Of a stretch of DNA of 64,000 bases, positions 1,764-18,204 are shown piece by piece (positions within the stretch are counted from its first letter, which is position 1; each line of letters begins with the position of its first letter). A program made the translations under genes and the position numbers. The stretch comes from an uncultured Campylobacterales bacterium. GTDB lineage: Bacteria; Campylobacterota; Campylobacteria; Campylobacterales; Arcobacteraceae. Under the pieces are notes generated by a model. That model did not search any database and was not told the DNA's origin. It worked only from the letters and a program-made list of their open reading frames with translations. The stretch covers positions 62,001 to 126,000 of the forward strand of contig CANLWY010000002.1 of assembly GCA_947494995.1 (NCBI GenBank), written 5' to 3'.

Positions 1764-2423
1764 TTGAATAAGATACTTGTATTAGAAGACGATACGCTTT
1801 TATTAGAGACTTTAGAAGATTTTTTAGAAGATGAAAGTTTTGAAATAAAAACTGCTGTAAATGGTGAAGAGGTTATTGAATTTGCCTATGAAAACTCTTT
1901 TGACTTATATCTTTTTGATATTAATGTTCCTAAGATTAATGGAATAGATTTATTAAAGGAATTAAGGAAAAATGGCGACAATACTCCTACAATATATTTA
2001 ACTTCTTATAAAGATAAAGAGAAATTAACAGAAGGTTTTTTAAGTGGTTGTGATGATTATTTAAAAAAACCTGTAGATTTAGATGAACTTTTACTTAGAA
2101 TAAACTCTTTACTAAAAAGAAGTGGAAAGTTTTTTGAAGAAGTAAAATTAAGTGAAGAGCTAAGTTTTAATCCTAAAAATAGAAGAATATTAAACAGTGG
2201 GAAAGATATTTATGCAGCCGCAAAGGTTATTGACTTACTTGAACTCTTTTTAGAAAATAAAGATTCTATTATTTCAAAAGATATGATAATCGATAAGTTA
2301 TGGAGTTTTGATGAAGAGTATAGTGAAGGATCAATAAGAGTTTATATAAATAATTTAAAGAAAATCATAGGAAAAGAAAAAATAAAAAATATAAAAGGAA
2401 TAGGGTATAAAATTGAATTATAA
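1764..2423 (+). CDS. OmpR/PhoB-family response regulator
   Basis: DNA-binding regulator of a two-component system. Residues 1-115 form a receiver domain with the acidic pocket D9/D10, phospho-acceptor D52 in FDINVP, T80 and K102 before P103. Residues ~125-219 form a winged-helix output domain ending in the typical GIGYKIEL. The start is TTG at 1764; no better ATG is available in frame without cutting the receiver fold. The kinase gene overlaps its 3' end by 11 bp. The 11-bp-spaced TTAACT repeat upstream suggests it controls itself and, by inference, the metal operons downstream. Confidence 0.9.
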   Translation: MNKILVLEDDTLLLETLEDFLEDESFEIKTAVNGEEVIEFAYENSFDLYLFDINVPKINGIDLLKELRKNGDNTPTIYLTSYKDKEKLTEGFLSGCDDYLKKPVDLDELLLRINSLLKRSGKFFEEVKLSEELSFNPKNRRILNSGKDIYAAAKVIDLLELFLENKDSIISKDMIIDKLWSFDEEYSEGSIRVYINNLKKIIGKEKIKNIKGIGYKIEL

Positions 2424-3267
2424 AAAAAGAAATTTTTTAATTACAAACGCTATTGTTGTTGTCTTTACTCTTCTTTTATCATTACTTTTAAATTTTTATT
2501 TAACTTCTTATTTTGGGTTTAATCATGATACTTTTATGTTAGTAACTCTATCAGTACTAGTATTTGGATTAGGTTTATATCTTCTTTTAAGTAAAACAAT
2601 TTTTGAACCTCTTTTTAAAAGTGATGAGAATCTCCAAAAGACTGTAAAAGAGACTCTTCATGAACTTAATATTCCTATCTCAACTATCAATTTAAATACT
2701 CAAATGTTAGAGAAGAATATAAGTGGAGAAAAAGAGTTAAAGCGATTAAAACGTATAAAACTAGCTTCTAATGAGCTTTTGAAACTTTATGAAGATATGG
2801 AGTATCAGATTAAAAAAGAGATTGATAAAGTTGATATTACTACTTTTGATTTAAAGCAACTTATACAAAAAAGTTTAGTTAAATTTGAAGATTTAAAAAA
2901 TGATATTACAATAGAGCTAGATATTGTAGATATTGAACTGCAAAGTGATATAAATGGTTTTCAAAAAATGATTGATAATCTTATTTCAAATGCTTTAAAA
3001 TACAATCTTAAAGAAAATGGTCAAATAAAAATTTCATATGAAAATAATAGTCTTATTATTTTTAATACTGGAAAAGAGATAGATACAAAAAACTTAATTT
3101 TAATTTTTGAAAAATTTTTTCAAGAAGACTTTTCAAAGGAAGGGTTTGGATTAGGTCTTTCTATGGTAAAAGATTTTTGTGATAAAAATAAAATTGGAAT
3201 AAAAATTCAACCATCAAAGAGTGGAAATAGTTTTATTCTGAATCTAAAAAAACTAATTAAAGAGTAG
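2413..3267 (+). CDS. Sensor histidine kinase partner of the OmpR-type regulator
   Basis: Small inner-membrane kinase of 284 residues. Two membrane helices (about 8-30 and 41-60) are separated by only ~10 residues, so there is no periplasmic sensor domain and sensing is probably within the membrane. The phospho-acceptor is H83 in the TLHELNIP box. The ATPase part shows the N-box (DNLISNALKYN) and a GFGLGL glycine-rich motif. It starts with TTG inside the regulator gene, with an 11-bp overlap that indicates translational coupling. It lacks a recognisable HAMP domain. The ligand cannot be read from sequence; metal sensing is only suggested by the neighbouring operons. Confidence 0.87.
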   Translation: MNYKKRNFLITNAIVVVFTLLLSLLLNFYLTSYFGFNHDTFMLVTLSVLVFGLGLYLLLSKTIFEPLFKSDENLQKTVKETLHELNIPISTINLNTQMLEKNISGEKELKRLKRIKLASNELLKLYEDMEYQIKKEIDKVDITTFDLKQLIQKSLVKFEDLKNDITIELDIVDIELQSDINGFQKMIDNLISNALKYNLKENGQIKISYENNSLIIFNTGKEIDTKNLILIFEKFFQEDFSKEGFGLGLSMVKDFCDKNKIGIKIQPSKSGNSFILNLKKLIKE

Positions 3268-4717: not shown

Positions 4718-4756
4718 TTAACATAAAATTAACACTTACTTAATTATTAATTAACA
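4718..4756 (+). promoter_or_regulatory. Four tandem TTAACA-type half-sites at 11-bp spacing
   Basis: Half-sites start at 4718 (TTAACA), 4729 (TTAACA), 4740 (TTAATT) and 4751 (TTAACA), each exactly 11 bp from the next. A -10-like TATAAA is at 4774-4779, 17 bp after the last repeat, much the same spacing as at the response-regulator gene. This is the layout expected for cooperative binding of OmpR/PhoB-type dimers. The receptor start codon follows at 4796. Which regulator binds is inference. Confidence 0.6.
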
Positions 4757-4795
4757 TAACTAGTTTAAAATCTTATAAAAGTTTTAAGGATAGAT

Positions 4796-6892
4796 ATGAG
4801 ATTAAGGTTTTCAATTTTTGCATGTATTGCACTTTGTACATCAATTAGTGCAAATGATAGTGTAGAGTTAGATAAAGTGTCTGTAACAGCAACAAAGGTA
4901 GAAAGAGTTACTAAAGAAGTAAGTCAAAGTATTGCGGTTGTTGATAAAAAAGAGATAGAAAATAAAAATATTGTAACTATCTCTGAGGCATTAAATACAA
5001 CTCCTGGTGTCAATATAGAGAGTTCTACAAATAGTTCAAGTCCAAGACTTATTATACGAGGTGCAGGACTTAAAGCAAGATATGGTGTAAGAGAGATTAT
5101 GGTTGTAAAAGATGGTGTTCCTATGACAGACCCAGACTCTTTTACAAGATTTGATTTTATTGATATGCAAGATGTTGAGTCAATAGAAGTACAAAAGGGA
5201 CCTGGTTCTATTCATGCTGTTAATAGTACAGGTGGAGTTATTCAGCTTATTACAAAATCTGTATTTGATGATAGTGAAAATAGAGTAAAGTTTGGAGTGG
5301 GTAAATATGGGAGTAATCAAGCAAACTTTAGATTTACAAAAGCATTTGATGATAGTAACTATATTTCAATAAATGCAAGTTCTACTAAAAATGATAATGA
5401 TTGGCGAAAGAATAATGATTTAGATACAAAGCAAATAAGTTTAAAATATGGTCATATTTTTGAAGATGAAGCTACTTTTGAAAGTGAGTTATCTTATACA
5501 GAATCGAATATGCAACTTCCTGCTTCAATGAATGAAGTAGAATATGAAGAGTTTAAAAAAACTGGGAAACAAGAAGATACGAGTTCTCCTTGGCAGCATA
5601 GTGCAAGAGATTCAAAAATACTATTTTTTAATGCAAAGTATGAAAAAGAAGTAGGTAATATAACTTATAGACCAAGAATTTACTTTAATACTTGGGAACA
5701 TTTCCATCCTGTAACAGCAATGATAAATGATAGCAATAATAATAAAGTATTTGGTACGGATTTAGAATTAAACTATGCTCACAAACTATTTGCAAATGAT
5801 GCAATTTTAGTTGCTGGTGTAACTGCCAAACAAGATAGAACAAGAGATTCTAAAAAGTATGCATATAAAGATTTTAATATTGTAGGAATGGGAAGATTTA
5901 ACATTAGTGAAACATTATCAGAAAAAAAAGGTGACTTGGCAAATGTTGAAGACTCTACTGCAACTTTATATGGATTCTATTTACAAGAGAGTTTCAAACC
6001 TTTAGAGAAAACCCTTGTAGATTTATCTTTAAGAGTGGATAGAGTTAAGTTTGATGTAGATGGAAACGAAATTTTAGAGTATAACTGGAGTGGTTTTGGC
6101 GGACAAACTTATAAAACAGGTGATGGAAGATATTCTATTAATGAAGCATATACTTTGGTATCTCCTAAAATAGGTGTTAGTTATGCCCTTAGTGACTCAA
6201 CTAATATCTATGCTTCAGTTGCAAGTGCAAATCAAGCTCCAACCGATAATGAACTTAAAACAAATAGAGTTGAAGATAAAGGAACTTTAGACAAAACTCA
6301 AAGTATAAATTATGAGATAGGACTAAAAACAAGAACAAAAGATTTCTCATATGATTTAGCAATTTTTCAAAATGATGTAAAAGATGAGATAACAGCTACT
6401 AAGGAAGGTTGGACAACTTTTTATCAAAATGCAGGAAAGACTCAAAAAAGAGGTTTAGAGTTTTCTGGACAATATAATTTAAATAAAAACTTATCTTTAG
6501 GTGCTTCTTATACATATAGTAATTTTAAGTTTAAAGAGTTTAAGGAAGATGGAACATTTAATAGAAGTGGAAACTACCTACCATATATTCCAAAACATCA
6601 ATACGCAATATTTGCAAACTTCAATTACGATAGATTTAAATCAAGAGTTCAGACAAGATCTTGGGGAAGTTATTATATGGACAATGCAAATAGTGAAAAG
6701 CACAGTGGTTATGAGTTTGTAACAGATGTGATGGTTGGATATGAATATAAAAATCATAATCTTCAACTAAATATAAATAATGTTTTTGATAAACACTATG
6801 CAATGTCAGCACAAAAAGATTTAGATGGAGATTATACATATAAAGCTGCAGCTCCTAGAACTGTAATGTTTACTTATTCATATAAGTTTTAA
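4796..6892 (+). CDS. TonB-dependent outer-membrane receptor, probable metal or metallophore substrate
   Basis: Outer-membrane gated channel of 698 residues. A signal peptide ends near SISA (about 19). A TonB box-like segment (DKVSVTATK) is followed by a plug domain (about 35-155, with RGAGLKARYG and the GPGSIHAVNSTGGVI strand) and a 22-strand barrel ending in the aromatic YSYKF. AAGGA sits 6 bp before the start. It is first in a run with the polyferredoxin-NosL fusion, exbB, exbD and tonB, all closely spaced. The NosL-like partner points to copper, but the barrel also resembles siderophore receptors, so iron uptake is the main alternative. Confidence 0.85.
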   Translation: MRLRFSIFACIALCTSISANDSVELDKVSVTATKVERVTKEVSQSIAVVDKKEIENKNIVTISEALNTTPGVNIESSTNSSSPRLIIRGAGLKARYGVREIMVVKDGVPMTDPDSFTRFDFIDMQDVESIEVQKGPGSIHAVNSTGGVIQLITKSVFDDSENRVKFGVGKYGSNQANFRFTKAFDDSNYISINASSTKNDNDWRKNNDLDTKQISLKYGHIFEDEATFESELSYTESNMQLPASMNEVEYEEFKKTGKQEDTSSPWQHSARDSKILFFNAKYEKEVGNITYRPRIYFNTWEHFHPVTAMINDSNNNKVFGTDLELNYAHKLFANDAILVAGVTAKQDRTRDSKKYAYKDFNIVGMGRFNISETLSEKKGDLANVEDSTATLYGFYLQESFKPLEKTLVDLSLRVDRVKFDVDGNEILEYNWSGFGGQTYKTGDGRYSINEAYTLVSPKIGVSYALSDSTNIYASVASANQAPTDNELKTNRVEDKGTLDKTQSINYEIGLKTRTKDFSYDLAIFQNDVKDEITATKEGWTTFYQNAGKTQKRGLEFSGQYNLNKNLSLGASYTYSNFKFKEFKEDGTFNRSGNYLPYIPKHQYAIFANFNYDRFKSRVQTRSWGSYYMDNANSEKHSGYEFVTDVMVGYEYKNHNLQLNINNVFDKHYAMSAQKDLDGDYTYKAAAPRTVMFTYSYKF

Positions 6893-6903
6893 GAGGAGTT
6901 AAT

Positions 6904-8736
6904 ATGGTAAATTTTATCAAAAGAGATAAAAATGATATATATGGGATTCCCGTTTTAGGTTATATATTTAAAAATCAAAAATTCTTATTAACTTTGAAAA
7001 TAGTACTTTTAGTACTGTTTTCATATGCAATAATTTTTGGGTTTACAAATAATACTGGAGATAATCTTTTTACTAGAGGACTTTTCTGGGGACTTTTCTG
7101 GCCTTTTTTTATGGTTGTCTCATTATCAACTTTAGGACGGGTCTTTTGTGGAGTTTGTCCTCATGGTTTTGTAGGTAAATATATTACAAAGTTTGGCTTA
7201 AAGAAAAAAATGCCTAAATCTTTAGAAAATCCTTTTATTGGTCTTATCCTTTTATTTATTGGCTGGTGGTTTGTTTATTATATGTTCCCAGGAGTTTATA
7301 AAACACCATTTGCTACAGCTTTAGTATTTTTAATTTTAACTATTTTTGCTTTTGTATTTTTCTTTATATATAGCAATATGTCTTATTGCAAATCTCTTTG
7401 TCCTATTAGTGCTGTAACAAGAGGGTTTTCAAAGATCGGATTTACTTGGCTTGGAACTTATAAAGAAGAATGTAACTCTTGCAAAACTTTTGATTGTGCA
7501 AAAGCCTGTTCTTATAATTTGAAACCATTTACTTTTGATAAGAAAAATTCAATGGAAGATTGTACTTTATGTATGGATTGTAGTTCGGCTTGTGAAGCAG
7601 TTAGTTTTAAATTAAAAAAGCCATCTTCTTCTCTTTTTAATAAGTTCAAATATAAGAAGTCAGAAGTTTGGGCATTTATTCTAATAACTGGTGCAATTAC
7701 AATTACTATGGGCTTTCATCATGCTCTAGGAAGAAGTGCTATTGTAGAAGAGTTTTTCTGGACAAAAACAGCAAGATATTTTGAAGGATTTATTAATTTT
7801 GGTTCAATTGATACAGTAGGTTTATTTGCTTTTATTTATGCGATGCTTATTGTGCTAATGTTATCTATTGTTGGGATGTTTATCTCTTCAAGAATTATGA
7901 AACTCTCTTATGAAAAAACTATGTATACTCTTGGTTTTGCTTTTGCTCCAATTTTTATAGTTGGGGGACTTTCTCATATTGGAGAGTTTTTCTTTTATCA
8001 CTATGCTTCGGACATTGTAAATGGTTTTATTCAAGCTTTTTATTTAAATATTGAATATATGGAACCTTTAGCTACAAGAAAAGATAAATGGGTACATATT
8101 TTTAATGCTTTTAAGTATATAGCCTTTATTTGGGCAATTATCATTATGATAGGAAGATTAAGATTATTAGATACATCAACAATTCGTAAAGTTATTGCAT
8201 TTCCTTTTGCATCTGCTTTAATTATCTTTTACATGGGATTAAATTTTTATACAGGATATGTATTTAAAACTTATGGAGCTATGAAAAGAGGTGGTCATTC
8301 TCATGGCTCTCATACAAGTGAGAAAATGTTTCAATCAGTATCTTTTAAAGAAGCAACTCTTTTACAAGAAGGTACAAATAAAGTTAGTGGTTCAGTATGT
8401 GGTATGAATTTACTTAAATCTTATAAAACAAATCATAGTGCTGTTGTAAAAGGAAAGGTTAAACAATATTGTTCACTACACTGTTTAGTAGAAGATTTAA
8501 AAGTTAAAAACTTAGTATTAGAAGACATTCAAGTTGTAGATGTAAAAACACTAAAATTTATTAATGCTAATAAGGCCTCATATGTAGTTGGAAGTTCTAA
8601 AAAAGGAACTATGACAAGAACAAGTAAATATGCATTTAAAAACTTAGATGATGCAAAAGAATTTATACACAAATATGGTGGAGAGATTGTATCTTTTGAA
8701 AATGCTGTATTAAAAGCTATATTAGATTTTAAATAG
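6904..8736 (+). CDS. Membrane polyferredoxin (NapH/NosR/CcoG-like) fused to a NosL-like domain
   Basis: A 610-residue inner-membrane protein. The N-terminal third has helices and an FCGVCPHG motif (C82, C85), a YCKSLCP motif (C162, C166) and two cluster-binding sets: C190-x2-C193-x4-C198-x3-C202 and C220-x2-C223-x2-C226-x3-C230. The middle holds about six helices. After a His/Met-containing linker (GGHSHGSHTSEKM), the last ~112 residues resemble NosL: CGM at 499-501, a CSLHC motif, and the YVVGS/KYAF strands. CcoG relatives reduce Cu(II), and NosL binds Cu(I). I infer metal reduction coupled to capture in the periplasm. It lies 11 bp after the receptor gene. Confidence 0.75.
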   Translation: MVNFIKRDKNDIYGIPVLGYIFKNQKFLLTLKIVLLVLFSYAIIFGFTNNTGDNLFTRGLFWGLFWPFFMVVSLSTLGRVFCGVCPHGFVGKYITKFGLKKKMPKSLENPFIGLILLFIGWWFVYYMFPGVYKTPFATALVFLILTIFAFVFFFIYSNMSYCKSLCPISAVTRGFSKIGFTWLGTYKEECNSCKTFDCAKACSYNLKPFTFDKKNSMEDCTLCMDCSSACEAVSFKLKKPSSSLFNKFKYKKSEVWAFILITGAITITMGFHHALGRSAIVEEFFWTKTARYFEGFINFGSIDTVGLFAFIYAMLIVLMLSIVGMFISSRIMKLSYEKTMYTLGFAFAPIFIVGGLSHIGEFFFYHYASDIVNGFIQAFYLNIEYMEPLATRKDKWVHIFNAFKYIAFIWAIIIMIGRLRLLDTSTIRKVIAFPFASALIIFYMGLNFYTGYVFKTYGAMKRGGHSHGSHTSEKMFQSVSFKEATLLQEGTNKVSGSVCGMNLLKSYKTNHSAVVKGKVKQYCSLHCLVEDLKVKNLVLEDIQVVDVKTLKFINANKASYVVGSSKKGTMTRTSKYAFKNLDDAKEFIHKYGGEIVSFENAVLKAILDFK

Positions 8737-8755
8737 ATTTATAAAAGGAAATTAT

Positions 8756-9181
8756 ATGAATATTGAATTGCTTAAAAACTTAGTTGATTATGGGGTTATT
8801 GCATTACTTGGAGTTATGAGTTTTATTGCAGTAATGCTTTTTTTTGAAAGACTATTTTTTTATAGAAAACTTGATGTAAATAAGTATAAAAATAAAAAAC
8901 AGTTAGATGTAGCATTAACAAAAAATCTTACTTTTATAGGAACTATAGCTTCAAACTCCCCATATATAGGACTATTAGGAACAGTATTAGCAATTATGCT
9001 TACCTTTTTAACTATGAGTGAAGGAGATATTGTTGCAACAAAAATTATGGCATCTTTAGCATTAGCATTAAAAGCAACAGCAATTGGACTTGTCGTTGCA
9101 ATTATATCTATGGTTTTTTATAATATTTTAGTAAGGTATACAGAAATTTTGGAAAGTAAATATGAAAATCAAGAAGTTTGA
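8756..9181 (+). CDS. exbB: ExbB-type proton channel subunit
   Basis: Inner-membrane subunit that, with ExbD, turns proton flow into movement of TonB. It is short (141 residues) with three helices: about 10-30, 65-85 and 98-120. The conserved region IASNSPYIGLLGTVLAIM and the following LALALKATAIGLVVAI helix are typical of the MotA/TolQ/ExbB family. Good AAAAGGAA ribosome site upstream. It overlaps exbD by 20 bp. Context makes it the energiser for the receptor at 4796. Confidence 0.9.
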   Translation: MNIELLKNLVDYGVIALLGVMSFIAVMLFFERLFFYRKLDVNKYKNKKQLDVALTKNLTFIGTIASNSPYIGLLGTVLAIMLTFLTMSEGDIVATKIMASLALALKATAIGLVVAIISMVFYNILVRYTEILESKYENQEV

Positions 9182-9542
9182 TTCTATAAATGTAATACCA
9201 TTTATTGATGTTTTATTAGTACTATTAGCAATAGTACTAATGACATCAACTTTTATAGCAAAAGGAGTAATTCCTGTATCTTTACCTAAAGCTTTATGTG
9301 CTGAAGATAAGAAACTAGAAAGAGAGATAACTTTTTATATTAAAAAAGATGGTTCAATATATCTTGGTAAAAACTTAGTTTTAAAAGAGCAGATTGAAAA
9401 GAGATTAAAATTGTTTAAAAAAGATAATCCAATCCTGATAAATAGTGATAAAGACTCAAAATTTGATGTTTTTGTATCTTTATTTGATTTATTAAAAGAG
9501 AATGGCTTCGAAAATATATCAATAGTGACAATAAAACAATGA
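9162..9542 (+). CDS. exbD: ExbD-type energiser subunit
   Basis: Single-span inner-membrane protein of 126 residues. The helix at about 11-30 contains the essential aspartate in NVIPFIDVLLVLLAI, and the periplasmic domain follows. Its start lies inside exbB (20-bp overlap) and its stop overlaps tonB by 4 bp, so the three are translationally coupled. It works with ExbB to drive TonB. Confidence 0.9.
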   Translation: MKIKKFDSINVIPFIDVLLVLLAIVLMTSTFIAKGVIPVSLPKALCAEDKKLEREITFYIKKDGSIYLGKNLVLKEQIEKRLKLFKKDNPILINSDKDSKFDVFVSLFDLLKENGFENISIVTIKQ

Positions 9543-10252
9543 GATATTTAGCTTCCTTTTTTTTAACAACTTTTATTTATACTGCACTTGCAGTTGTTTT
9601 TTTATTTGCCATACCCTTTAATACTCCTTCAATCAAGAATGAAAAAAAGAAAGAAGTATCTTTAAATTATGTAAAAATAATAAAGCCTAAAAAGAAAAAA
9701 GCAATCGAATCTATAGAAAAAAAACTTGAAAAACCTATAAAGAAACAGGAAATAAAAAAAGAATTAATAAAAGAGTCTAAGAGAATAGTCAAATCTAAAT
9801 CAAAAAAAGTAGTAAAGAAAAGAAATAAAAAAACTATTAAAAAAGTAAAAATAAAACAAAAGAAAATTGTTAAACAAGTTGAATTAAAAAAAACTATTAA
9901 AGAAAAAGTAGAAAAAACAGTATCAACAGAGATATATAAACCTTCTGTAAAAAAAGAGTCAAGAGAAGAGTATAAAAAAGCTTTTTTGAGAAGAAACTTA
10001 GCATTAATTAAAAAACATATCCAATCTCAGATAAAGTACTCTAAAAGAGCAAGAAGAATGAATATACAAGGTGATGTTAGAGTTAGATTTTTATTAAAAA
10101 AAGATGGTACGGTTATAAATATAGTAGCCTTGGAAGGACATAGACTTCTTAGAAAATCAACCATAAAAGCCATTAATGAAGCATCAAAATATTTTCCATC
10201 TGTACAAAAAAATATAACAATAACCATACCTATTCAATATAGATTAATTTAG
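9539..10252 (+). CDS. tonB: TonB energy transducer with a lysine-rich spacer
   Basis: Links the ExbBD motor to outer-membrane receptors. One N-terminal helix (about 6-28) anchors it; residues ~35-150 form an unusually long basic spacer of repeated K, KK and KE motifs where many TonB proteins have Pro-rich sequence. The C-terminal domain (about 165-237) shows ARRMNIQGDVRVRFLLKKDG and ends in the IPIQYRLI strand. It closes the receptor-polyferredoxin-exbBD unit, so it is probably dedicated to that receptor, though TonB proteins can be shared. Confidence 0.88.
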   Translation: MRYLASFFLTTFIYTALAVVFLFAIPFNTPSIKNEKKKEVSLNYVKIIKPKKKKAIESIEKKLEKPIKKQEIKKELIKESKRIVKSKSKKVVKKRNKKTIKKVKIKQKKIVKQVELKKTIKEKVEKTVSTEIYKPSVKKESREEYKKAFLRRNLALIKKHIQSQIKYSKRARRMNIQGDVRVRFLLKKDGTVINIVALEGHRLLRKSTIKAINEASKYFPSVQKNITITIPIQYRLI

Positions 10253-10276
10253 TTTTTAGTTTATATTAAAGATGTA

Positions 10277-10304
10277 TTAATATGGAGTTAAAATACAGTT
10301 AAAA
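10277..10304 (+). promoter_or_regulatory. Three TTAA-type half-sites at 11-bp spacing before the EF-hand gene
   Basis: TTAATA at 10277, TTAAAA at 10288 and TTAAAA at 10299 are spaced exactly 11 bp, with a consensus -10 TATAAT at 10314-10319. The half-sites lack the C of the TTAACA sites upstream of the receptor operon, so this is the weakest member of the proposed regulon. Confidence 0.3.
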
Positions 10305-10347
10305 AATTAGTTATATAATTACTATAAGTAAAGATAAGGAGGACGTG

Positions 10348-10719
10348 ATGAAAGCTTTAAAATTAATTTTAGCAGGTTTGATAGTAACTGGTGCAACTTT
10401 TTTGGTTGCTGAAACATTACCAACAAGAGGTCCTTTACCATTTTCAACTTATGATAAAGATAATAACAATGTCATTACCGTAAAAGAGTTTAATGTGATT
10501 AAAAAGCAAAGAATAGAGCAAAAGTATCAAGAAGGAAGATTAATGAGAAATGCCGTTGATTTTTCAGATATTGATACTAATTCTGATGGAATAATCACAA
10601 AAGAAGAATTAAAGATTCATCAAGATAAAAGGTTTATGAATAGAATGAATCAAAGAAATTTAAATAAACAAGGTGGAAGAGGTATGGGAATGGGACAAGG
10701 ACAAGGTCCAAATTGGTAA
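10348..10719 (+). CDS. Secreted EF-hand calcium-binding-type protein
   Basis: Small periplasmic or exported protein. A signal peptide (about 1-22, ending near FLVAE) precedes two EF-hand loops: DKDNNNVITVKE and DTNSDGIITKEE, each with ligands at positions 1, 3, 5, 9 and 12. The C-terminus is Gly/Met/Gln rich (GRGMGMGQGQG). A GTG at 10345 is in frame, but the AAGGAGG at 10336-10342 is better placed for the ATG at 10348. It has its own promoter and follows the tonB gene. The Met-rich tail could bind a soft metal; that is inference. Confidence 0.8.
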   Translation: MKALKLILAGLIVTGATFLVAETLPTRGPLPFSTYDKDNNNVITVKEFNVIKKQRIEQKYQEGRLMRNAVDFSDIDTNSDGIITKEELKIHQDKRFMNRMNQRNLNKQGGRGMGMGQGQGPNW

Positions 10720-10752
10720 AAAGAGAAGGAGATTTAGTTCTCCTCTCTTTTT
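10720..10752. terminator. Bidirectional terminator between convergent genes
   Basis: An imperfect stem (AAAGAGAAGGAGA against TTCTCCTCTCTTT, loop TTTAG) has A residues on one side and T residues on the other. It ends the EF-hand gene on the plus strand and overlaps the end of the 56-residue gene on the minus strand. Confidence 0.65.
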
Positions 10753-10904
10753 AATGTAACACTCCAACCTTTATATTTAGGGTCATTATTTATTTCATCA
10801 ATCTGTTTTTTTGTTAAATGTGGATAACTCATAGTTTTTCCATCCCAAACTATACAAGCAAAGGTTTTTTCTTTTTTGAAAATTGATTTAATTTTATCAA
10901 ACAT
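10734..10904 (-). CDS. Small hypothetical protein, 56 residues
   Basis: A short open frame on the minus strand that fills the gap between the EF-hand gene and dgt. It starts with ATG at 10904 after a good AAAGGAT ribosome site 4-5 bp upstream. The protein begins MFDKIKSIFKKEK, has one Cys (ACIVWDGK) and a charged C-terminus, with no signal peptide or membrane helix. The amphipathic N-terminus could associate with membranes. I do not recognise the family. The ribosome site and the terminator at its end support it being real. Confidence 0.6.
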   Translation of the reverse strand: MFDKIKSIFKKEKTFACIVWDGKTMSYPHLTKKQIDEINNDPKYKGWSVTLKREEN

Positions 10905-10964
10905 TTTTATCCTTTAATTGGTTAGTAGATAATATAATATCAAAAATATTTAAAGTAAAGATTT

Positions 10965-12404
10965 ATGATGATTGATTACAATAAAAAATTAACACTTCAT
11001 AGAGAAATGTATCCTATGAGTGATATTAATATCTCTGTTGAAAGTGATAGGGGAAGAATACTTTCTGCTCCATCACTTAGACGTCTTCAAAAGAAAACAC
11101 AAGTTTTCCCTCTAGAGCTTAATGCTGCTGTTAGAAGTAGGCTTACTCACTCGTTAGAAGTTTCTCAAACAGCAAGATTTATTTCAAAAACTATTCTAAA
11201 AAAATGTGAAGGAAAATTTGGTTTAGAAAATCTTAGTGATGCTTTTATTTCAACTGCTGAGATGACAAGTTTATTGCATGATATAGGTAATCCTCCCTTT
11301 GGGCACTTTGCAGAAGTTGCTATAAATAATTGGATGAAAACAAAAGGAATAAAAATCCTTGATGAATTAGTTGAAGTTGATGAAAAGAATCAAGAATTTA
11401 AAAAACTTTTATCGAATGATTTATGTAATTTTGATGGAAATGCGCAAGCAATTAGAGTTGTAACTAAGCTTCAAAGACTAAATCTATCTTTTTCTCAAAT
11501 AGCTTCTATCTTAAAGTATACAAGAGGTGCTTATGAAGAGAAACCATCTAAAAATGATGAGTTTTCATATTTAAAAAAGAAACCTGGTTTTTATTATTCT
11601 GAAAGAGAAATAGTTGAAAAGATAAAAGATGCTTTAGGGTTGGAAGATGGATGTAGATTCCCAATAACATATATTATGGAAGCAGCTGATGACATAAGTT
11701 ATTTAAATGCAGATATGGAAGATGCTGTAGATAAAGGTATAATTAAATTTGAGGATATATATACTCTTATAAAAGAAGAGTGTGAAAAGATGGGTGAAAC
11801 TTATCTTTTAGAACTTGTAGCGCAGTTTTATCAAAAAGCAAAAGATAAGGAGAGTGAACCATATCAATTTAATCTATTTTTGACTTTAACAAGAGCAAAA
11901 CTAACACACGCACTTGTAGAACATGTATCGGAAGTCTTTTTAGATAATCATGAAGATGTTTTTAACGGAAAATTTAATAACGCACTCTTAGAATATGATA
12001 AACAAAGTAAATATACAAAAGCAGTAGAAGTTTTACAAAATATCTCTATTAAGCATATTTATAATAATAAAGATATACAAACTTTAGAGTTAAAAGGTCA
12101 AAAAATATTATCATCTCTTTGTGAGAATTATGCAACACTTTTAAAACTTGAGAGTGAAGAGTTTGAAAAGTTAACTTGTGGAGAAAGAATCTCATGCTTC
12201 TTATCTCAAAGATTAATAAGAAGACTATCTGCAAAACATATAGTTGCTTATAAGGATTCTATATCAACTTTATCAAAAGAAGATATGACTAAATATAAAC
12301 TAGAAGAGTGGTATTATAGAGCTAGACTTATTATTGACTATATTTCAGGAATGACAGATGATTTTGCTTTAAATGAGTATAAAACTTTAGAAGCTTTGAT
12401 ATAG
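10965..12404 (+). CDS. dgt: dGTPase (deoxyguanosine triphosphate triphosphohydrolase)
   Basis: HD-domain enzyme that splits dGTP to deoxyguanosine and triphosphate, trimming nucleotide pools. Length (479) fits the family. Visible hallmarks are RRLQKKTQVFP near the start, RLTHSLEVSQ with the first metal His, the HD pair in LLHDIGNPPFGHFAE, and MEAADDISYLNADMEDAVDKG with the later Asp. Two ATGs are adjacent at 10965 and 10968; either could start it. It is convergent with the HAD phosphatase 1 bp away. It has no evident link to the metal genes around it. Confidence 0.9.
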   Translation: MMIDYNKKLTLHREMYPMSDINISVESDRGRILSAPSLRRLQKKTQVFPLELNAAVRSRLTHSLEVSQTARFISKTILKKCEGKFGLENLSDAFISTAEMTSLLHDIGNPPFGHFAEVAINNWMKTKGIKILDELVEVDEKNQEFKKLLSNDLCNFDGNAQAIRVVTKLQRLNLSFSQIASILKYTRGAYEEKPSKNDEFSYLKKKPGFYYSEREIVEKIKDALGLEDGCRFPITYIMEAADDISYLNADMEDAVDKGIIKFEDIYTLIKEECEKMGETYLLELVAQFYQKAKDKESEPYQFNLFLTLTRAKLTHALVEHVSEVFLDNHEDVFNGKFNNALLEYDKQSKYTKAVEVLQNISIKHIYNNKDIQTLELKGQKILSSLCENYATLLKLESEEFEKLTCGERISCFLSQRLIRRLSAKHIVAYKDSISTLSKEDMTKYKLEEWYYRARLIIDYISGMTDDFALNEYKTLEALI

Positions 12405-12405
12405 T

Positions 12406-13029
12406 TTAGTTAAACTTATCAAAGATTCTTTTCTCTAATTCTTCTATTGTTTCAATAGCATCTTTGTCATGATTTGAAAAACCCCAGTTTACAAGAACTG
12501 AGTCAATTCCTGCATTTGAAGCAGCCATTATATCTTTATGTGAATCTCCAATTAATTGAGCATTATGTTTTTGTATATTATGAGTATCTAAAATCTTATA
12601 CACCATTTCAGGATGTGGTTTTGCATTTACAACTGAATCATAACCTAAAATAGTCTCAAAATAATTACCAATACCCACATAATCAAGCATTTTTCTTGCA
12701 AAAGTTGAGTTTGCATTTGTTGCAACTGCTAGTGTAAAATCTGAACTTAAATCATCCATAAGCTTTTTTATACCGTCATATAGCTCTAAATCTTTTAAAC
12801 AGTTAGCATTATAATGGTCCTCAAAAAGAACCTTTTGCTCTTCTGTAAAGTCTGGTGTACCATAAAAGAATTGTGCAGCATTTATTTCTGGGTCATTTAC
12901 TTTTTCTAGAATATAGTTCTTTTCCATTTTTTTGAAGCCAAGGTTTTCTCTTACATGATTTATTGTATTTGTTATAGATGTTCCACTATCTATTAAAGTT
13001 CCATCCATATCAAACATAAGTAGACGCAT
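12406..13029 (-). CDS. HAD-superfamily phosphatase (phosphoglycolate phosphatase-like)
   Basis: Cytoplasmic hydrolase of 207 residues. The catalytic motif FDMDGTLIDSG places the nucleophile at D7 and acid/base at D9. The cap domain follows, then motif II near VATNAN, the lysine in VNAKPHPEM and motif IV in GDSHKDIMAASNAGI. This layout matches Gph-type HAD enzymes, but substrate specificity in this family cannot be read from motifs. AAAGGA lies 6 bp before the ATG. It ends tail to tail with dgt. Confidence 0.85.
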   Translation of the reverse strand: MRLLMFDMDGTLIDSGTSITNTINHVRENLGFKKMEKNYILEKVNDPEINAAQFFYGTPDFTEEQKVLFEDHYNANCLKDLELYDGIKKLMDDLSSDFTLAVATNANSTFARKMLDYVGIGNYFETILGYDSVVNAKPHPEMVYKILDTHNIQKHNAQLIGDSHKDIMAASNAGIDSVLVNWGFSNHDKDAIETIEELEKRIFDKFN

Positions 13030-13105
13030 AAAATTCCTTTATAGTTTTTATAGAGAGTATTATAGGGTTTTTATGATTAATTTTGTGAACGGTTTTAGAT
13101 ATAAT

Positions 13106-14593
13106 TTAATTGTTTAAAGGAATTGAAATTGTAAATTCTGCACCATCATATTTTTTATTTTTGTATTTAAAATTTACATTTTTTACTGAAATTGAACCTT
13201 TTAGGCTTTCTGTAATTATTCTATAGGTCATATATAATCCAAGTCCTGTTCCTTGAGATTGGTGTTTAGTTGTAAAGTATGGTTCAAATATTTTATTTAT
13301 AATGTTTTGTGGTATTCCTTTTGCAGTGTCTTTTATAATAATAATTAAATTATTTCCTTCTCTTTTTGTTTTTAAAAAGATATATCTTTTTTCTAATTTA
13401 TTTTCTTTAAAAGCATCCTTCGCATTGTTTATTATATTTATTAAAGCTTGAGTTAATTCATTTGGACATCCTTCAAGAGAGTACTCTATTGGTGTTTCTC
13501 TTATGATCTCTATATGAGAATAATTTAAAGAGCCTTTCATAAGTGAAATAATTTTATCAAGATGTGAGTTTATATAAAAGGTAACTACTTTTTTATTTTC
13601 TGTCATAAAACCTCTAAAGTCATCAATTGTTTCAGATAAATATTTTGTTGTGTTAATTATTTCATCCATTGTATAGTCAAGTTTTTTGTCATCTAATTTA
13701 CCAAACTCTTTTTGAACTTTTACTCCACTTGCTGCTGTAGATATTATACAAAGTGGTTGACGCCATTGATGGGCTATATTACCTAACATCTCTCCTAGAC
13801 TTGCCATCTTTGATTGTTCATGTAGGAGTTCTTCTTTTTCATGAAGCTTTTGATCTAAGAGTTGTTGTTTTTGTACATAACTTATTAATTTTCTATAGCA
13901 GAGAAATCCAATAATAATACTTATTATATAGAATAATAGATAGTTAAAAAAAGTGTTTTTATTTTCTAAATAGGTTCTTTTATTATATTCTTTTGTAGGG
14001 ATAGATATTGATACTCCACCTCGTATATCTCCTACTTTATACCCTTGAAAAGCATGACATTTTAAACAGTCTTGTTCTATTTTCATTGCAGACATAAATC
14101 TAAAATGTTCTTGATCATCTAATGTTGTAGTTTCATAATATTCTGTAATCTCTTTTTTTTCAAACTCTTTTAAAACCTTTTCTTCCCATGGGTCTGCTTT
14201 GTTATTTGGATTTAGTAGTTTTAAACTTGTGATATGTCCTTTTTGTCCATACATACCTGAAAAGTTATTCATTAGTTCTCTTAGTGTATATGCAGGGTTC
14301 ATAAGTGTTAGTTTCATTCCATTTGTTGTAACTACATCTCTATTTGGAATGTGAGAAAGATAAGGATTACTTGGTGTCTTTTCTGTTGGAGTTACATATA
14401 CTCCACCATGCATAGTAACCCATTGTCTAAACATCATATCTTTTTTAAAAGCATTTTTTGCATGATTTAAAAGTAAATCATCACGTTTTTTATTTGTATA
14501 GGAAATTGTATTGATTAAAGAAATAAGAATTACTAATGTCCAGATAGATAAAATTATAAAGCTATATGTTTTTATTTGTTTTAAATCTTTCAT
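13106..14593 (-). CDS. Histidine kinase with a CxxCH (Tll0287-like) periplasmic sensor domain
   Basis: Membrane sensor kinase of 495 residues. Helices at about 12-30 and 207-224 enclose a periplasmic Tll0287/DUF3365-like domain with a heme-c attachment motif CLKCH (C166, C169, H170). The cytoplasmic part has a coiled coil, the phospho-acceptor His near 275 in GNIAHQWRQP, an N-box (NIINNAKDAF) and GTGLGLYM. No response regulator lies next to it. It diverges from the NosL-like gene, with a TTAACA repeat between them. Covalent heme suggests redox or gas sensing; this is inference. Confidence 0.85.
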   Translation of the reverse strand: MKDLKQIKTYSFIILSIWTLVILISLINTISYTNKKRDDLLLNHAKNAFKKDMMFRQWVTMHGGVYVTPTEKTPSNPYLSHIPNRDVVTTNGMKLTLMNPAYTLRELMNNFSGMYGQKGHITSLKLLNPNNKADPWEEKVLKEFEKKEITEYYETTTLDDQEHFRFMSAMKIEQDCLKCHAFQGYKVGDIRGGVSISIPTKEYNKRTYLENKNTFFNYLLFYIISIIIGFLCYRKLISYVQKQQLLDQKLHEKEELLHEQSKMASLGEMLGNIAHQWRQPLCIISTAASGVKVQKEFGKLDDKKLDYTMDEIINTTKYLSETIDDFRGFMTENKKVVTFYINSHLDKIISLMKGSLNYSHIEIIRETPIEYSLEGCPNELTQALINIINNAKDAFKENKLEKRYIFLKTKREGNNLIIIIKDTAKGIPQNIINKIFEPYFTTKHQSQGTGLGLYMTYRIITESLKGSISVKNVNFKYKNKKYDGAEFTISIPLNN

Positions 14594-14673
14594 AGTAACC
14601 TCGAAATAATTTAATCTAAAAGTATCTTATCATAATAGTATAAAAATAACAAGTATCTATATTTTATTGTTGT

Positions 14674-14690
14674 TTAACACTTAATTAACA
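14674..14690 (+). promoter_or_regulatory. TTAACA-N5-TTAACA direct repeat upstream of the NosL operon
   Basis: Two exact TTAACA half-sites start at 14674 and 14685, 11 bp apart, matching the sites at the TonB-receptor operon. A -10-like TATAAA lies at 14715-14720 and a TATATT at 14695-14700; the spacing to either differs from the 16-17 bp seen at the other two promoters. The site could also serve the divergent kinase gene. Confidence 0.5.
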
Positions 14691-14726
14691 TTTGTATATT
14701 AAACTTTCAACACATATAAAGAGAAT

Positions 14727-14810
14727 TAAAACCTCCTACTACTAATATTTTAATTTTCTATAATTGAATAAATTTGAATATAAGCTTCACTTTTTAGTGA
14801 AGCTTTTTTT
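14727..14810 (+). ncRNA. Candidate small RNA or attenuated leader with a CCUCC motif
   Basis: A ~85-nt stretch between a -10-like element (14715-14720) and a strong intrinsic terminator (14782-14810) holds no open frame. It contains CCTCC at 14732-14736, a sequence complementary to Shine-Dalgarno sites, in an otherwise unstructured AU-rich context. It could be a trans-acting RNA, or the attenuated leader of the nosL-like gene downstream. The start is inferred from the -10 and no transcript evidence exists. Confidence 0.35.
14782..14810 (+). terminator. Intrinsic terminator ahead of the NosL gene
   Basis: A perfect 10-bp stem, AAGCTTCACT with AGTGAAGCTT, has a TTTT loop and is followed by TTTTT. 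No plus-strand coding gene lies upstream of it within this gap, so it ends either a small RNA or a leader transcript. Confidence 0.8.
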
Positions 14811-14813
14811 ATT

Positions 14814-14842
14814 TATAGAAAATATTAAATGAATTTTCTATA
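14814..14842. repeat. Inverted repeat just upstream of the NosL ribosome site
   Basis: Arms TATAGAAAAT (14814-14823) and ATTTTCTATA (14833-14842) are perfect inverted copies separated by 9 nt. It lies between the terminator and the AGGAAAG ribosome site at 14861-14867, so it may be an operator or a second leader hairpin. Confidence 0.5.
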
Positions 14843-14873
14843 TGATTACTTAAAATTTTTAGGAAAGAAGATA

Positions 14874-15377
14874 ATGAAAAAAGTTTTACCTATATTAACA
14901 GCTGTTGTTTTAATATTTATTATTGTTATGATATTTGCATCTATGGCAAAAGAGAAAAATATGATTGTAATAGAAGAGGGCAACCACTCTCATAAACCTC
15001 TTGAAGTAAAACTAAATCACCATCAAGACACTCAATGTGGAATGACTTTAACAACTTTAGTAGATTCTGCTCAAGCTATCTCTCCTGAAGGTAGAACTTG
15101 GTTCTTTGATGATACAGGGTGTTTAGCTTTATGGTATAAAGATATTGATTTTAAAGATAAAGCGGTTATTTGGGTATATTCACGTGATACAAAAGAGTAT
15201 ATTGATGGTAGAAAAGCTTGGTATGATAAAACTTCAAATACAACTATGGGTTATGGTTTTGGTGCTTATAAAGTGAAAAAGGAAGGTATGATACCTTTTG
15301 AAGAGATGCTTTTAAAAATGTATAGAGGTGAAAACCTTACAAATCCACTTATTAGAAAACAACTTTTAGGAAAATAA
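14874..15377 (+). CDS. NosL-like copper-binding protein
   Basis: Membrane-anchored periplasmic protein related to NosL, the Cu(I)-binding accessory factor of nitrous oxide reductase. From the ATG at 14874 (AGGAAAG 6 bp upstream) it has one helix (about 5-24), a His-rich stretch (GNHSHKP, LNHHQD) and the CGM motif at 55-57, followed by the TWFFDDTGCLALW and WVYSRDT strands. A longer frame opens at 14829, but that start lacks a ribosome site. No nosZ gene is in the window, so its client may be another copper enzyme. It overlaps the permease by one base (TAATG). Confidence 0.75.
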   Translation: MKKVLPILTAVVLIFIIVMIFASMAKEKNMIVIEEGNHSHKPLEVKLNHHQDTQCGMTLTTLVDSAQAISPEGRTWFFDDTGCLALWYKDIDFKDKAVIWVYSRDTKEYIDGRKAWYDKTSNTTMGYGFGAYKVKKEGMIPFEEMLLKMYRGENLTNPLIRKQLLGK

Positions 15378-16087
15378 TGGAAAGTGTAAGTATTCTAACA
15401 ATCATATCTATCGCTTTTCTTGGTTCTTTTGGTCATTGTATTGGTATGTGTGGTGGAATAGTTGTAGCTTACTCTAGTACTAAAATAGATTCAGGTTGGT
15501 CAAAAACAAAGCAGTCTATTTCTCATATTCTTTACTCTTTTGGAAGAATCACAACTTATATGATCTTAGGAGTTGTTTTTGGTTTTATTGGTGGTGTTGT
15601 AACTTTTGATAATATGACAAGTGGAATACTTCTTATAACAACAGGTCTATTAATGATACTTGTTGGTTTATCTTTAAGTGGAAAAATAAAATTCTTAACA
15701 TCTTTAGAACACTCTATGTCTAAATCACCACTATATCAATATACTTTTAAAGCTTTGATAGGATCGAATAGTTTTTCTAGTTTTTATCTGTTGGGGATGT
15801 TAAATGGTCTTCTTCCTTGTGGGTTTGTATATGTTTTTGCAATTACAGCTGCAAGTACAGGTTCTCCTCTTTGGGGTGCAATTGTTATGTTAATATTTGG
15901 ACTTAGTACTCTTCCTGCAATGTTTTCTTTAGGTTTTTTTGTTGGAGTTTTTAAGCAAATTACTTTAAGAAATCTTTTTATAAAGATTGCTTCAATCTTA
16001 GTAATTCTTTTTGGAATATATATTATGTATAGAGGTTATGAATATATATCTGATCCTACAAAATCTATTCTTAGTTGTCACATATAA
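15377..16087 (+). CDS. DsbD_2/TauE-SafE-like membrane protein, probable metal trafficking
   Basis: Polytopic inner-membrane protein of 236 residues with about six helices in two halves. Each half carries a conserved Cys motif: GHCIGMCGG near residue 20 and GLLPCGFVY in the middle. This pattern belongs to the UreH/DsbD_2 branch, whose genes are often beside copper ATPase and cbb3 oxidase assembly genes. It is translationally coupled to the NosL-like gene. I infer movement of copper or reductant across the membrane. Sulfite export, the usual automatic label, is not supported here. Confidence 0.75.
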   Translation: MESVSILTIISIAFLGSFGHCIGMCGGIVVAYSSTKIDSGWSKTKQSISHILYSFGRITTYMILGVVFGFIGGVVTFDNMTSGILLITTGLLMILVGLSLSGKIKFLTSLEHSMSKSPLYQYTFKALIGSNSFSSFYLLGMLNGLLPCGFVYVFAITAASTGSPLWGAIVMLIFGLSTLPAMFSLGFFVGVFKQITLRNLFIKIASILVILFGIYIMYRGYEYISDPTKSILSCHI

Positions 16088-16376: not shown

Positions 16377-18203
16377 ATGAATAATAAAAAATTAACTACA
16401 AGTGTGGTTGCTTCACTACTATTAGCAACAAATCTTTACTCAGTAGAGTTATCTTCAATTACAGTTACAAGTGCAACAAAATCGGAACAGTCAATAAAAG
16501 ATGTTACATCAAATGTAGCAGTAATTACAAAAGAAGAATTAGAAGAGAGACATTTTACTACTGTTTCAGAAGCAATAAATACAATCTCAGGAATAAATGT
16601 AACTAGTAATGGTGGTTTAGGGAAAGCAACTTCAGTTTTTATGAGAGGTTTTGATTCTCAAAGAATTCTAGTGCTAATTGATGGTATCAGATACAATGAT
16701 ATTACAGGTATTAGTGGAGCTAGATTTGAACACTTAATGATAAGTGATATTCAGCAAATTGAGATTATTAAAGGGGCACAATCTGGTGTTTGGGGTGCAG
16801 ATGCAAATGCTGGTGTTATTAATATTATTACAACAAGTGCAAAAAAAGGTACAAGTGCAAGTGTTAATATAGAAGTTGGGTCTTTTTTAACAAAAAAACT
16901 TAATGCAAAAATTTCTCATAAGAGTGATAAATACGATTTTAAATTTGGAATAACAAAAATCGATACTGACGGATTTACAGCAAGATTACCTAAAGGTGAT
17001 GATGTTTCTAAATATGAAGATGATGGATATGTAAATACAACTATAAATGCAAAATTTGGGTATAACATTAATAGTAATAACAGAATAGAGTTATCTCATA
17101 ATAGATTAAAAGCAAAAAGTGAATATGATAATGGCCCTTGGGGAACAACAATAGCCCAAAAAGCTGATGGTGAAGGTTATGTTTTAGAGACTAAAAACCA
17201 TTATAGTTCTCTTGCTTATTTAAATAAAAATAAATATTCTGATATAAAAGCCTATGCAAACTATTCAAAAATAGATAGAGATGATGAAAAAGGTTATACA
17301 AAAGAGTTTGATGGAAATATGAAAGAGTATGGAGTAAATGCAAAAATCCCATATAATGTAGACTCTTTTATATTAGCGGGAGTTGACTATAAAGTATCAA
17401 ATCATAAAAATGATGTAGATAGAACACTTAGAAATAGAGGTGCTTTTATTACAAATAGTACTAAGTATGACAAACTTATTTTTACTCAGTCTTTAAGATA
17501 TGATAATTATGATTTATTTAACAATAAAACAACAGGAAAAGTTGGTGTTAGATATAACCATAACGAAAACCTTTATGTAACATCTAATATTGGTACTTCA
17601 TATAATGTTCCAACATTTTATAAGTTATATGATGCGTGGGCAGGTTTTGAAAACCTACAACCTGAAACAACAAAAAGTTTTGATTTGACTGTTTCTTACA
17701 AAGATTTATCTCTTACTTACTTTGATAATAAAATAAATAATATGATTGAATATAATAGTAATACTTACAAATACTTCAATATGGATGATGATGTAAGACT
17801 TAGAGGTCTTGAAGTTGGATATAAAAAAGCAGTTCTTGATGATTTATTATTGAGTTTAAATTATACATATACAGATGCAAAAGATGCAGAAAAGAAAAGA
17901 CTTCAAAGAAGAGCAAAACAGAGTATTAAATTCGGAGTTGATTATTATGGGTTTAAAGATTTTCATATTAATGTAAATGGTGAATATGTTGGAGATAGAA
18001 TTCAGTACGATTTTGGTACTTATAATGAATCTGCTCAAACAGGAAAATATACTGTATGGAATGCAGTAGTTAATTATGAAATTAATAGTCAAGCAAGTGT
18101 TTATTTAAAAGTTGATAATATCTTTGATAAATACTATCAAACAGTTGATACTTATTCATCAGCTCCAAGAAGTGCATATATAGGATTAAAATATAGTTTC
18201 TAA
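16377..18203 (+). CDS. btuB: BtuB-like TonB-dependent cobalamin receptor
   Basis: Outer-membrane receptor of 608 residues, the usual size for BtuB. A signal peptide (about 1-22) precedes a TonB box (LSSITVTSATK), a plug with FMRGFDSQRILVLIDGIRYND and GAQSGVWGADANAGVINI, and a barrel ending in YIGLKYSF. It starts a uptake operon with btuF (1 bp gap), btuD and btuC, and B12 biosynthesis genes follow. Cobalamin or cobinamide is therefore the likely ligand. It must use a TonB system such as that at 8.7-10.2 kb. Confidence 0.88.
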   Translation: MNNKKLTTSVVASLLLATNLYSVELSSITVTSATKSEQSIKDVTSNVAVITKEELEERHFTTVSEAINTISGINVTSNGGLGKATSVFMRGFDSQRILVLIDGIRYNDITGISGARFEHLMISDIQQIEIIKGAQSGVWGADANAGVINIITTSAKKGTSASVNIEVGSFLTKKLNAKISHKSDKYDFKFGITKIDTDGFTARLPKGDDVSKYEDDGYVNTTINAKFGYNINSNNRIELSHNRLKAKSEYDNGPWGTTIAQKADGEGYVLETKNHYSSLAYLNKNKYSDIKAYANYSKIDRDDEKGYTKEFDGNMKEYGVNAKIPYNVDSFILAGVDYKVSNHKNDVDRTLRNRGAFITNSTKYDKLIFTQSLRYDNYDLFNNKTTGKVGVRYNHNENLYVTSNIGTSYNVPTFYKLYDAWAGFENLQPETTKSFDLTVSYKDLSLTYFDNKINNMIEYNSNTYKYFNMDDDVRLRGLEVGYKKAVLDDLLLSLNYTYTDAKDAEKKRLQRRAKQSIKFGVDYYGFKDFHINVNGEYVGDRIQYDFGTYNESAQTGKYTVWNAVVNYEINSQASVYLKVDNIFDKYYQTVDTYSSAPRSAYIGLKYSF

Positions 18204-18204
18204 A

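Follow-up and report, generated by a model that had tools for sequence, protein, structure and literature searches.

A candidate copper-acquisition operon with a TonB-dependent receptor and a polyferredoxin-NosL fusion, and its promoter box, in an uncultured Campylobacterales bacterium

A putative copper-acquisition operon

We analyzed a 64,000-nucleotide stretch of DNA (the window; C2:62001-126000 of a 3.17-Mb genome in 31 contigs) from an uncultured Campylobacterales bacterium, and propose that the operon at 4796-10252 encodes a system for acquiring copper, probably induced when copper is short, which would reduce and capture the copper that it imports. We place the probability of this reading, made from sequence, at about 0.72. 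It is supported by the gene content of the operon, by conserved residue motifs, by a promoter box and by the co-occurrence of its genes in related genomes. The genes named in the preliminary description of this DNA were all found, and all complete, among the window's open reading frames (ORFs) and in profile scans. Those of the operon and the gene that follows it are:

4796-6892, plus strand: TonB-dependent receptor TBDR1, which is proposed to import a copper complex (Plug PF07715, E 2.6e-20; barrel PF00593, E 4.9e-44)
6904-8736, plus strand: 610-residue protein, a membrane polyferredoxin (residues 1-470; Fer4_5, E 8.1e-9) fused to a predicted periplasmic NosL domain (about 485-610; PF05573)
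8756-9181, plus strand: ExbB (TIGR02805, TonB energiser ExbB2, 145.4 bits, over the cut-off of 135.35)
9162-9542, plus strand: ExbD (PF02472, E 2.2e-26)
9539-10252, plus strand: TonB (PF03544, E 2.1e-15)
10345-10719, plus strand: small EF-hand protein, probably exported and, judged by its conserved position, a probable operon member (in genome G225 of the same genus a counterpart of 65% identity follows tonB)

The polyferredoxin-NosL fusion

The NosL domain was recognized at residues 492-600 of the fusion (E 9.6e-16, 58.8 bits against a cut-off of 24), and solved NosL structures were the sole convincing fold matches to the C-terminal part (7og7, Z 14.0, root-mean-square deviation 2.5, 118 residues aligned). 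According to PMC6530538, the hallmark of NosL is a CXM motif together with one other invariant methionine. Both are present in the fused domain: C499 and M501 were found in 24/25 NosL-bearing fusions (one fusion, L105, was not scorable at CxM in the slice used) and M570 in 25/25. The fused domain thus shares fold, CxM and second methionine with the NosL chaperone of nitrous oxide (N2O) reductase, but differs in its attached polyferredoxin, in the further residues H511, C523, H526 and C527 (invariant in 25/25) and in its presence in genomes with no match to nosZ. Judged from these alignments, NosL is an optional module of the polyferredoxin whose putative Cu(I) motif has been kept.

Within the polyferredoxin half, the motifs C82xxC85P and C162xxxC166P and two ferredoxin-like motifs (C190, C193, C198, C202 and C220, C223, C226, C230) were invariant in 32 homologues and in a set of 33, and H273 and H358 were invariant in the set of 33. 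We take the CxxCP, CxxxCP and two Fe-S motifs to liken the protein to the ferredoxin-type membrane proteins CcoG, NapH and NosR, and it has weak similarity to NapH. It differs from that group in about five more helices with conserved histidines, in its C-terminal periplasmic modules and in lacking a match to the CcoG model TIGR02745 (cut-off 316.7 bits). The resemblance to CcoG suggested in the preliminary description was not borne out, as that model matched other genes of this genome, two of them over the cut-off (C7:17868 and C1:120480) and one weakly (C1:275565). In our reading of the charge distribution and helix count, the N terminus and Fe-S clusters would be cytoplasmic and the C terminus periplasmic. 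The structure model was poor in the Fe-S region (predicted local distance difference test score under 50 at residues 181-246), and the membrane part gave no fold match beyond Z 5 and no evidence of a new fold.

Polyferredoxins that carry neither NosL nor a DUF4198-like domain had at least two histidines within their last 35 residues in 33/34 cases, and three of them end in MKCxxGKC-type stretches. In a side observation, the C termini at loci L112, L113 and L115 are MKCxxGKCxxxM-type tails, which we presume to resemble the copper-binding GKCG motifs of bufferins.

The receptor

The preliminary description had compared the receptor with the copper receptors OprC and NosA. This likeness was not recovered: the OprC/NosA model TIGR01778 (cut-off 472.45 bits) gave no match to TBDR1 at E <= 0.001. 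The best NCBIfam model was instead TonB-siderophor (TIGR01783), at 210.6 bits. Siderophore homology, which the preliminary description had set against a copper role, was therefore found as a best match but not clearly assigned, the score being below the cut-off of 223.5. It nevertheless raises an alternative, in which the receptor imports a ferric siderophore, the polyferredoxin reduces the siderophore iron and NosL is a general metal or redox module. Reductases that adjoin siderophore receptors are known, for example FoxB (PMC12914433); against this, the copper ligands of the NosL domain are conserved.

The pair H302-x-H304 was invariant in 11/11 TBDR1 receptors and in 28/28 aligned receptors, and M102 and M691 were also invariant. 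W266 was dropped as a candidate, being constant in the 11 receptors but absent from the invariant list of the 28. The receptor model places H302-x-H304 at the end of a barrel strand, probably on the outer side. OprC and CrtA also have histidines near an outer binding site, although a correspondence with the TBDR1 positions could not be shown. A 732-residue receptor, 9rvq, matched TBDR1 at E 3.6e-17; its identity as CrtA could not be confirmed. In a fold search with the model, BtuB, FhuA, YncD and PqqU all scored Z 28-29, so that the model is generic in fold and names no ligand.

Distribution and locus classes

We searched 248 genomes from the order, sampled evenly out of a larger group, and assembled 80 named loci, which were the best 80 of 98 relatives. 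Among the matches listed, the named relatives that come closest to the fusion were from Halarcobacter, Arcobacter and Campylobacteraceae metagenome-assembled genomes, so that the organism most likely belongs to the Arcobacteraceae. The fusion is also carried by Sulfurospirillum cavolei UCH003 (L156). Counted from the matches listed, at least 40 of the 248 genomes have the polyferredoxin half, once as a partial match. The receptor clade was found in 12 of the 248 (E <= 1e-60), and the polyferredoxin gene was adjacent in 12/12, in the same direction in 11 and divergent in one (G089). This consistent pairing indicates that the gene order is not due to chance.

For class counts we used 66 loci, having excluded L136 (identical to L093), five loci with cut receptor starts and eight without a usable receptor-polyferredoxin pair (one gave no polyferredoxin ORF and seven no receptor nearby). 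Class A, in which a receptor of the clade accompanies the polyferredoxin, comprises 29 loci, with NosL fused in 8 and a double-cubane gene in none. Class C, with another receptor and the polyferredoxin, comprises 12. The 25 class B loci have another receptor, a DsbD_2-like permease, a polyferredoxin with a DUF4198-like C terminus and, in some cases, NosL, together with a NapH-like protein, an HGD-D protein related to double-cubane reductase, a BadF-type activase and often an RND pump. Class B families were assigned from L059, L046 and L048, and the other loci were assigned by similarity to these. For the reductase of L059 the best family was NF040772, at 314.0 bits below its cut-off of 350 (HGD-D PF06050, E 1.1e-87), and the activase matched TIGR00241 at 211.4 bits, over the cut-off of 125.4. 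L059:8185-14346 and L150 are examples of class B loci lying under the promoter box described below. In G225, the equivalent chromosomal spot, bounded by genes for a response regulator (RR), histidine kinase (HK), band7 and NfeD protein on one side and exbB-exbD-tonB-EF-hand on the other, holds class B rather than class A; relative to the window it is a cassette swap.

The distribution also bears on a second alternative, that the system serves N2O reductase only, as a nos accessory. NosL is the copper chaperone of that enzyme (PMC6530538), and the inventory of copper genes in the window's genome includes nosZ (C1:955947-957740) beside one ccoN and six matches to NosL, of which one lies in the window; PCuAC gave no match in this genome. 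As the preliminary description had stated, nosZ was not among the scanned window genes. Contig C4 was ruled out as the site of a nos cluster, a 737-residue protein there being PurL. At E <= 1e-50, nosZ was matched in 7/12 receptor-clade genomes against 94/236 of the remaining genomes. The five without a match include G167, which is only 82% complete, and nosZ was also unmatched in two single-contig genomes with fused NosL, G078 (with this receptor) and G096 (with another receptor). G083 has the receptor, the polyferredoxin and a box-linked PCuAC gene, with no nosZ match and no NosL match at E <= 1e-20. These genomes contradict a role in N2O reduction only, a role that the preliminary description had named as one that would refute its own proposal, and although the box precedes nosZ in two relatives (G160 and G240), we regard this alternative as highly unlikely.

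A promoter box shared with copper genes

Alignment of the receptor promoters revealed TTAACA repeats at 11-bp steps, and hence the box TTAACA-N5-TTAACA. The window holds two exact copies:

4718-4756, plus strand: promoter array of four 11-bp units (TTAACA 4718, TTAACA 4729, TTAATT 4740, TTAACA 4751), which includes the exact box at 4718
14674-14690, plus strand: second exact copy of the box

An array comparable to the first was seen by eye in L077 and L079. Dinucleotide shuffles of the window averaged 0.11 exact copies and reached two in 1/100. The whole genome has three copies, two in these promoters and the third inside an ORF, against seven of a reversed control pattern; thus it is the placement of the box that is enriched, not its copy number.

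Across 79 named loci (L136 was dropped, as was any ORF whose start lay no more than 180 bases from the end of a locus), we counted a box when it lay no more than 200 bases upstream of an ORF or in its first 60 bases. The exact box was assigned to 36/69 receptor ORFs and to 3/656 other ORFs, the latter being ORFs of at least 90 residues with no match to the reference set, which may include false ORFs (Fisher p 4e-38, a value that overstates independence because the receptor ORFs are related by descent). Boxes matching at 11/12 bases were assigned to 59/69 and 6/656, and by class to 26/29 class A (the misses being L091, L120 and L144), 22/25 class B and 8/12 class C loci. Both spacing and letters were specific: a spacer of 5 gave 36 receptor ORFs and other spacers within 0-15 gave 0-2, and among 60 permuted hexamers the next best, with 10 matches, was a one-base shift of the box.

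In ten related genomes we found 47 exact box sites and 17 reversed-control sites. Sixteen of the 47 precede independent copper genes by 6-84 bases: NosL or tandem NosL (6), receptors whose best model is TonB-copper (5; one over the cut-off at 649 against 472.45 bits, four at 190-204 bits), PCuAC (2), nosZ (2) and ccoN (1). Nine belong to the module itself (receptor 8, exbB 1), including a box 338 bases off in G096 and one inside the called start in G240. The others are at RR genes (2, one ambiguous), an unscanned receptor (1), the HAD/DsbD_2 spot with the candidate RNA described below (2), DUF4405 proteins (7, of which two were scanned and the rest called by size and neighborhood), cytochrome c-like proteins (2), the interior of ORFs (5) and other positions (3). 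No gene with a match to the reference set, used here without PCuAC and ccoN, adjoins any of the 17 control sites. On contig C4 of the window's own genome, one-mismatch boxes, one per direction, lie between divergent tandem-NosL and NosL genes, each box facing its gene.

Several of these sites were of interest in themselves. At the C4 spot (L057:7087-12655, about 197-203 kb), the gene for the tandem-NosL protein, accompanied by those for an ABC permease of the MacB/FtsX type and an ATPase, diverges from the single NosL gene. A DUF4405-type membrane protein and an EF-hand gene lie under the box in L218, L221, L227 and L231, from four genomes of the Sulfurospirillum cavolei genus (Pfam assignment for L218 only). 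In L199:3124-5660 and L228:410-2980 the box is 67 and 21 bases, respectively, upstream of a 447/455-residue protein with a C-terminal cytochrome c-like part, whose partner is a 397-residue protein without a Pfam match (scanned in L199).

Because the targets of the box include NosL, PCuAC, TonB-copper-like receptors, nosZ and ccoN, copper is the most economical reading of the regulon, and this is the strongest point in favor of the copper role put forward in the preliminary description. As these are genes for uptake, chaperones and enzymes, we infer a response to shortage, not to excess. The regulon, with its copper chaperones, copper-type receptors and cuproenzymes, weakens the iron-siderophore reading, as does the finding that none of 19 scanned proteins near boxes (a subset of the downstream genes) had an iron-uptake family as best match; we consider siderophore uptake unlikely.

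Candidate regulators of the box

A two-component system lies just upstream of the region first described and may belong to the picture:

1764-2423, plus strand: OmpR-family RR (Response_reg, Trans_reg_C), candidate activator of the box regulon
2413-3267, plus strand: HK (HATPase_c, HisKA, homologues) with two likely membrane helices, judged by eye, and a very short periplasmic loop

Regulators of the OmpR/PhoB type bind sites of this form, and the neighboring RR-HK pair is a natural candidate for control of the box genes. An RR of at least 40% identity was found near 16/66 classified loci (class A 8/29, B 6/25, C 2/12). Two of these 16 linked RR genes are preceded by an exact box and four more by a box at 11/12 bases; an exact box also precedes the RR gene in G096 (L214).

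A third alternative is that a regulator like HP1043 or CosR, with a general role in respiration or redox control, acts at the box; copper genes would then be controlled as one part of respiration, and the receptor may carry a cobalamin, PQQ or nickel compound. The HP1043 (HsrA) box of Helicobacter, TTTAAG-N5-TTTAAG, is likewise a direct hexamer repeat with a 5-bp spacer and has the same period (PMC5253667), the nearest solved relatives of TBDR1 are YncD and PqqU, and the DUF4405 and cytochrome c-like genes carry the box too. However, the HP1043 hexamer and the targets named in that source differ from those found here, the box is specific in spacing and letter order, and the CosR consensus is unlike it (PMC3139631). 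In addition, the linkage of an RR-HK pair to some of the loci, with a box before some of the RR genes, argues against such a regulator, and we judge this alternative to be quite unlikely.

The NosL2-DsbD_2 unit and a candidate small RNA

Downstream of the core operon, beyond genes for a dGTPase, a HAD hydrolase and an HK, the second box is followed by:

14700-14811, plus strand: candidate small RNA, a hairpin with loop CCUCCUACUACUAAUA and then an intrinsic terminator at 14782-14810
14829-15377, plus strand: NosL2, a NosL-like membrane-anchored protein (true start probably ATG 14874, judged from a translated LGKKIM stretch)
15377-16087, plus strand: DsbD_2-type permease (PF13386, E 2.6e-50)

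The preliminary description had paired a NosL-like protein with this permease, in a unit that might pass copper on, perhaps to cbb3 oxidase. Both genes are present, but NosL2 had no Pfam or NCBIfam match at E <= 0.001, and its link to NosL comes from profile-profile comparison (hhalign probability 94%, E 1.5e-7, against NosL proteins of the same group). Since that profile also keeps C70-x-M72 and M140 in 6/6 sequences, NosL2 is, by sequence, a divergent NosL relative.

The stretch between the box and NosL2 had a fold z of -4.98, with 0/200 shuffles as good. A similar layout occurs in L077 (13884-14018, z -4.39) and L097 (14259-14378, z -5.08), and more weakly in G164 and G243; the common order, beside a homologous HAD gene (60-77% identity), is box, CUCC-loop hairpin, second hairpin. 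Seven other stretches were folded, among which L080 was without the loop layout, G164 had a z of only -1.62, the second hairpin of G243 was without a T run and L187 (G083) folded no better than shuffles. A search of 14500-14950 against Rfam returned Phe_leader alone, at 20.3 bits against a gathering score of 55, which we took to be chance. In our reading the stretch is a candidate small RNA, driven by the box, which might pair with Shine-Dalgarno sequences. Control of NosL2 by the box is uncertain because the terminator lies between the second box and the NosL2 start; expression of NosL2 and the permease may depend on read-through or on another promoter. In G225, the box that lies closest to NosL2 points away from it, toward a tandem NosL gene.

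Two neighbors of this unit may be recorded. The HK gene at 13106-14593 (minus strand), divergent from the second box, encodes a Tll0287-like domain and a CxxCH haem motif. Positions 16377-20667 hold a cobalamin-type uptake operon, with a BtuB-like receptor, a BtuF-like protein, an ABC ATPase and a FecCD permease.

Proposed mechanism and its place among known systems

We propose that the TonB receptor, powered by its own ExbB-ExbD-TonB, would transport Cu(II), as a complex, to the periplasm. Electrons would enter the polyferredoxin at its Fe-S clusters on the cytoplasmic side and cross the membrane, perhaps through the two conserved histidines, and the protein would then reduce Cu(II) on the periplasmic side. 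The histidine-rich tail and the tethered NosL domain (CxM...M) would catch the released Cu(I), and the NosL domain would deliver it for the assembly of cuproenzymes. The operon and the stand-alone NosL genes would be activated through TTAACA-N5-TTAACA by a regulator of the OmpR family, probably that of the adjacent RR-HK pair. In this scheme we infer the metal, the direction of regulation, the electron path, the reduction and the delivery. Import, reduction and capture are suggested by the parts and by the parallel with the CrtA-CrpH system, whose reductase role its authors only propose.

Several observations weigh against this copper-acquisition reading. Of the 47 box sites, 31 are not at an independently copper-annotated gene, including the five inside ORFs. 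The nosZ boxes of G160 and G240 and the ccoN box in relatives are on the opposite strand, 47-84 bases upstream, and the upstream stretches of the window genome's own nosZ and ccoN have no box at 11/12 bases or better. No exact box was found at the receptor of G078 or G160. Ten of the 16 linked RR genes are without an 11/12 box, and the best box score upstream of the window's own RR gene is 10/12. H273 and H358 are kept in 29/32 homologues, the three most distant being without both, and NosL is absent from most class A polyferredoxins (21/29 loci). The nearest solved relatives of TBDR1 include no copper receptor, and the likeness of its residues to those of CrtA or OprC is only suggestive.

The closest known system in logic is CrtA-CrpH of Bordetella pertussis, a copper import pair described in 2026 (PMC12914433, PMC13038864). 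As in the system proposed here, a TonB receptor for a copper complex and a membrane reductase share one operon, and some CrtA-CrpH loci also have ExbBD and TonB genes. CrtA-CrpH serves heme-copper oxidases. Its reductase is a PepSY_TM protein, a family with no match among 20 window proteins scanned with Pfam, whereas the counterpart here is an Fe-S polyferredoxin, sometimes with NosL. The CrtA family has two conserved histidines and no conserved cysteine or methionine, unlike TBDR1 with its invariant H302-x-H304, M102 and M691. OprC and NosA (TIGR01778; PMC8610252) import copper across the outer membrane, as proposed for TBDR1, and OprC has an HxM pair within a CxxxM-HxM site (PMC11836926). 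They differ in that receptors with TIGR01778 as best model are separate members of the same regulon. Among the matches listed in a literature search confined to open-licence PubMed Central papers, no title or opening of an abstract described the module, the box or the RNA.

Copper acquisition by Gram-negative bacteria is poorly characterized, according to the 2026 CrtA paper. The combination of a TonB receptor with a dedicated copper reductase has been known since that year; if confirmed, the class B loci and the RNA would reach beyond it. Taken jointly, our observations tentatively suggest a broader picture, which we consider possible but doubtful as a whole. Campylobacterota would have a copper-starvation regulon, governed by a dedicated two-component system through TTAACA-N5-TTAACA boxes, in which swappable receptor/polyferredoxin modules reduce copper complexes in the periplasm. 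At class B loci an ATP-driven double-cubane-type reductase and its activase would feed very low-potential electrons to the polyferredoxin, and the box-driven small RNA with its anti-Shine-Dalgarno loop would be a copper-sparing arm. If this is true, the class B arrangement would give a physiological role to the double-cubane-type enzyme, and it already offers a plausible physiological setting for that reductase type. The module itself would add a second solution to copper uptake, with an unrelated reductase and a tethered chaperone. The box would let a copper regulon be read in a group with microaerobic, denitrifying and vent organisms, and testable predictions follow on the supply of copper to cbb3 oxidase and N2O reductase.

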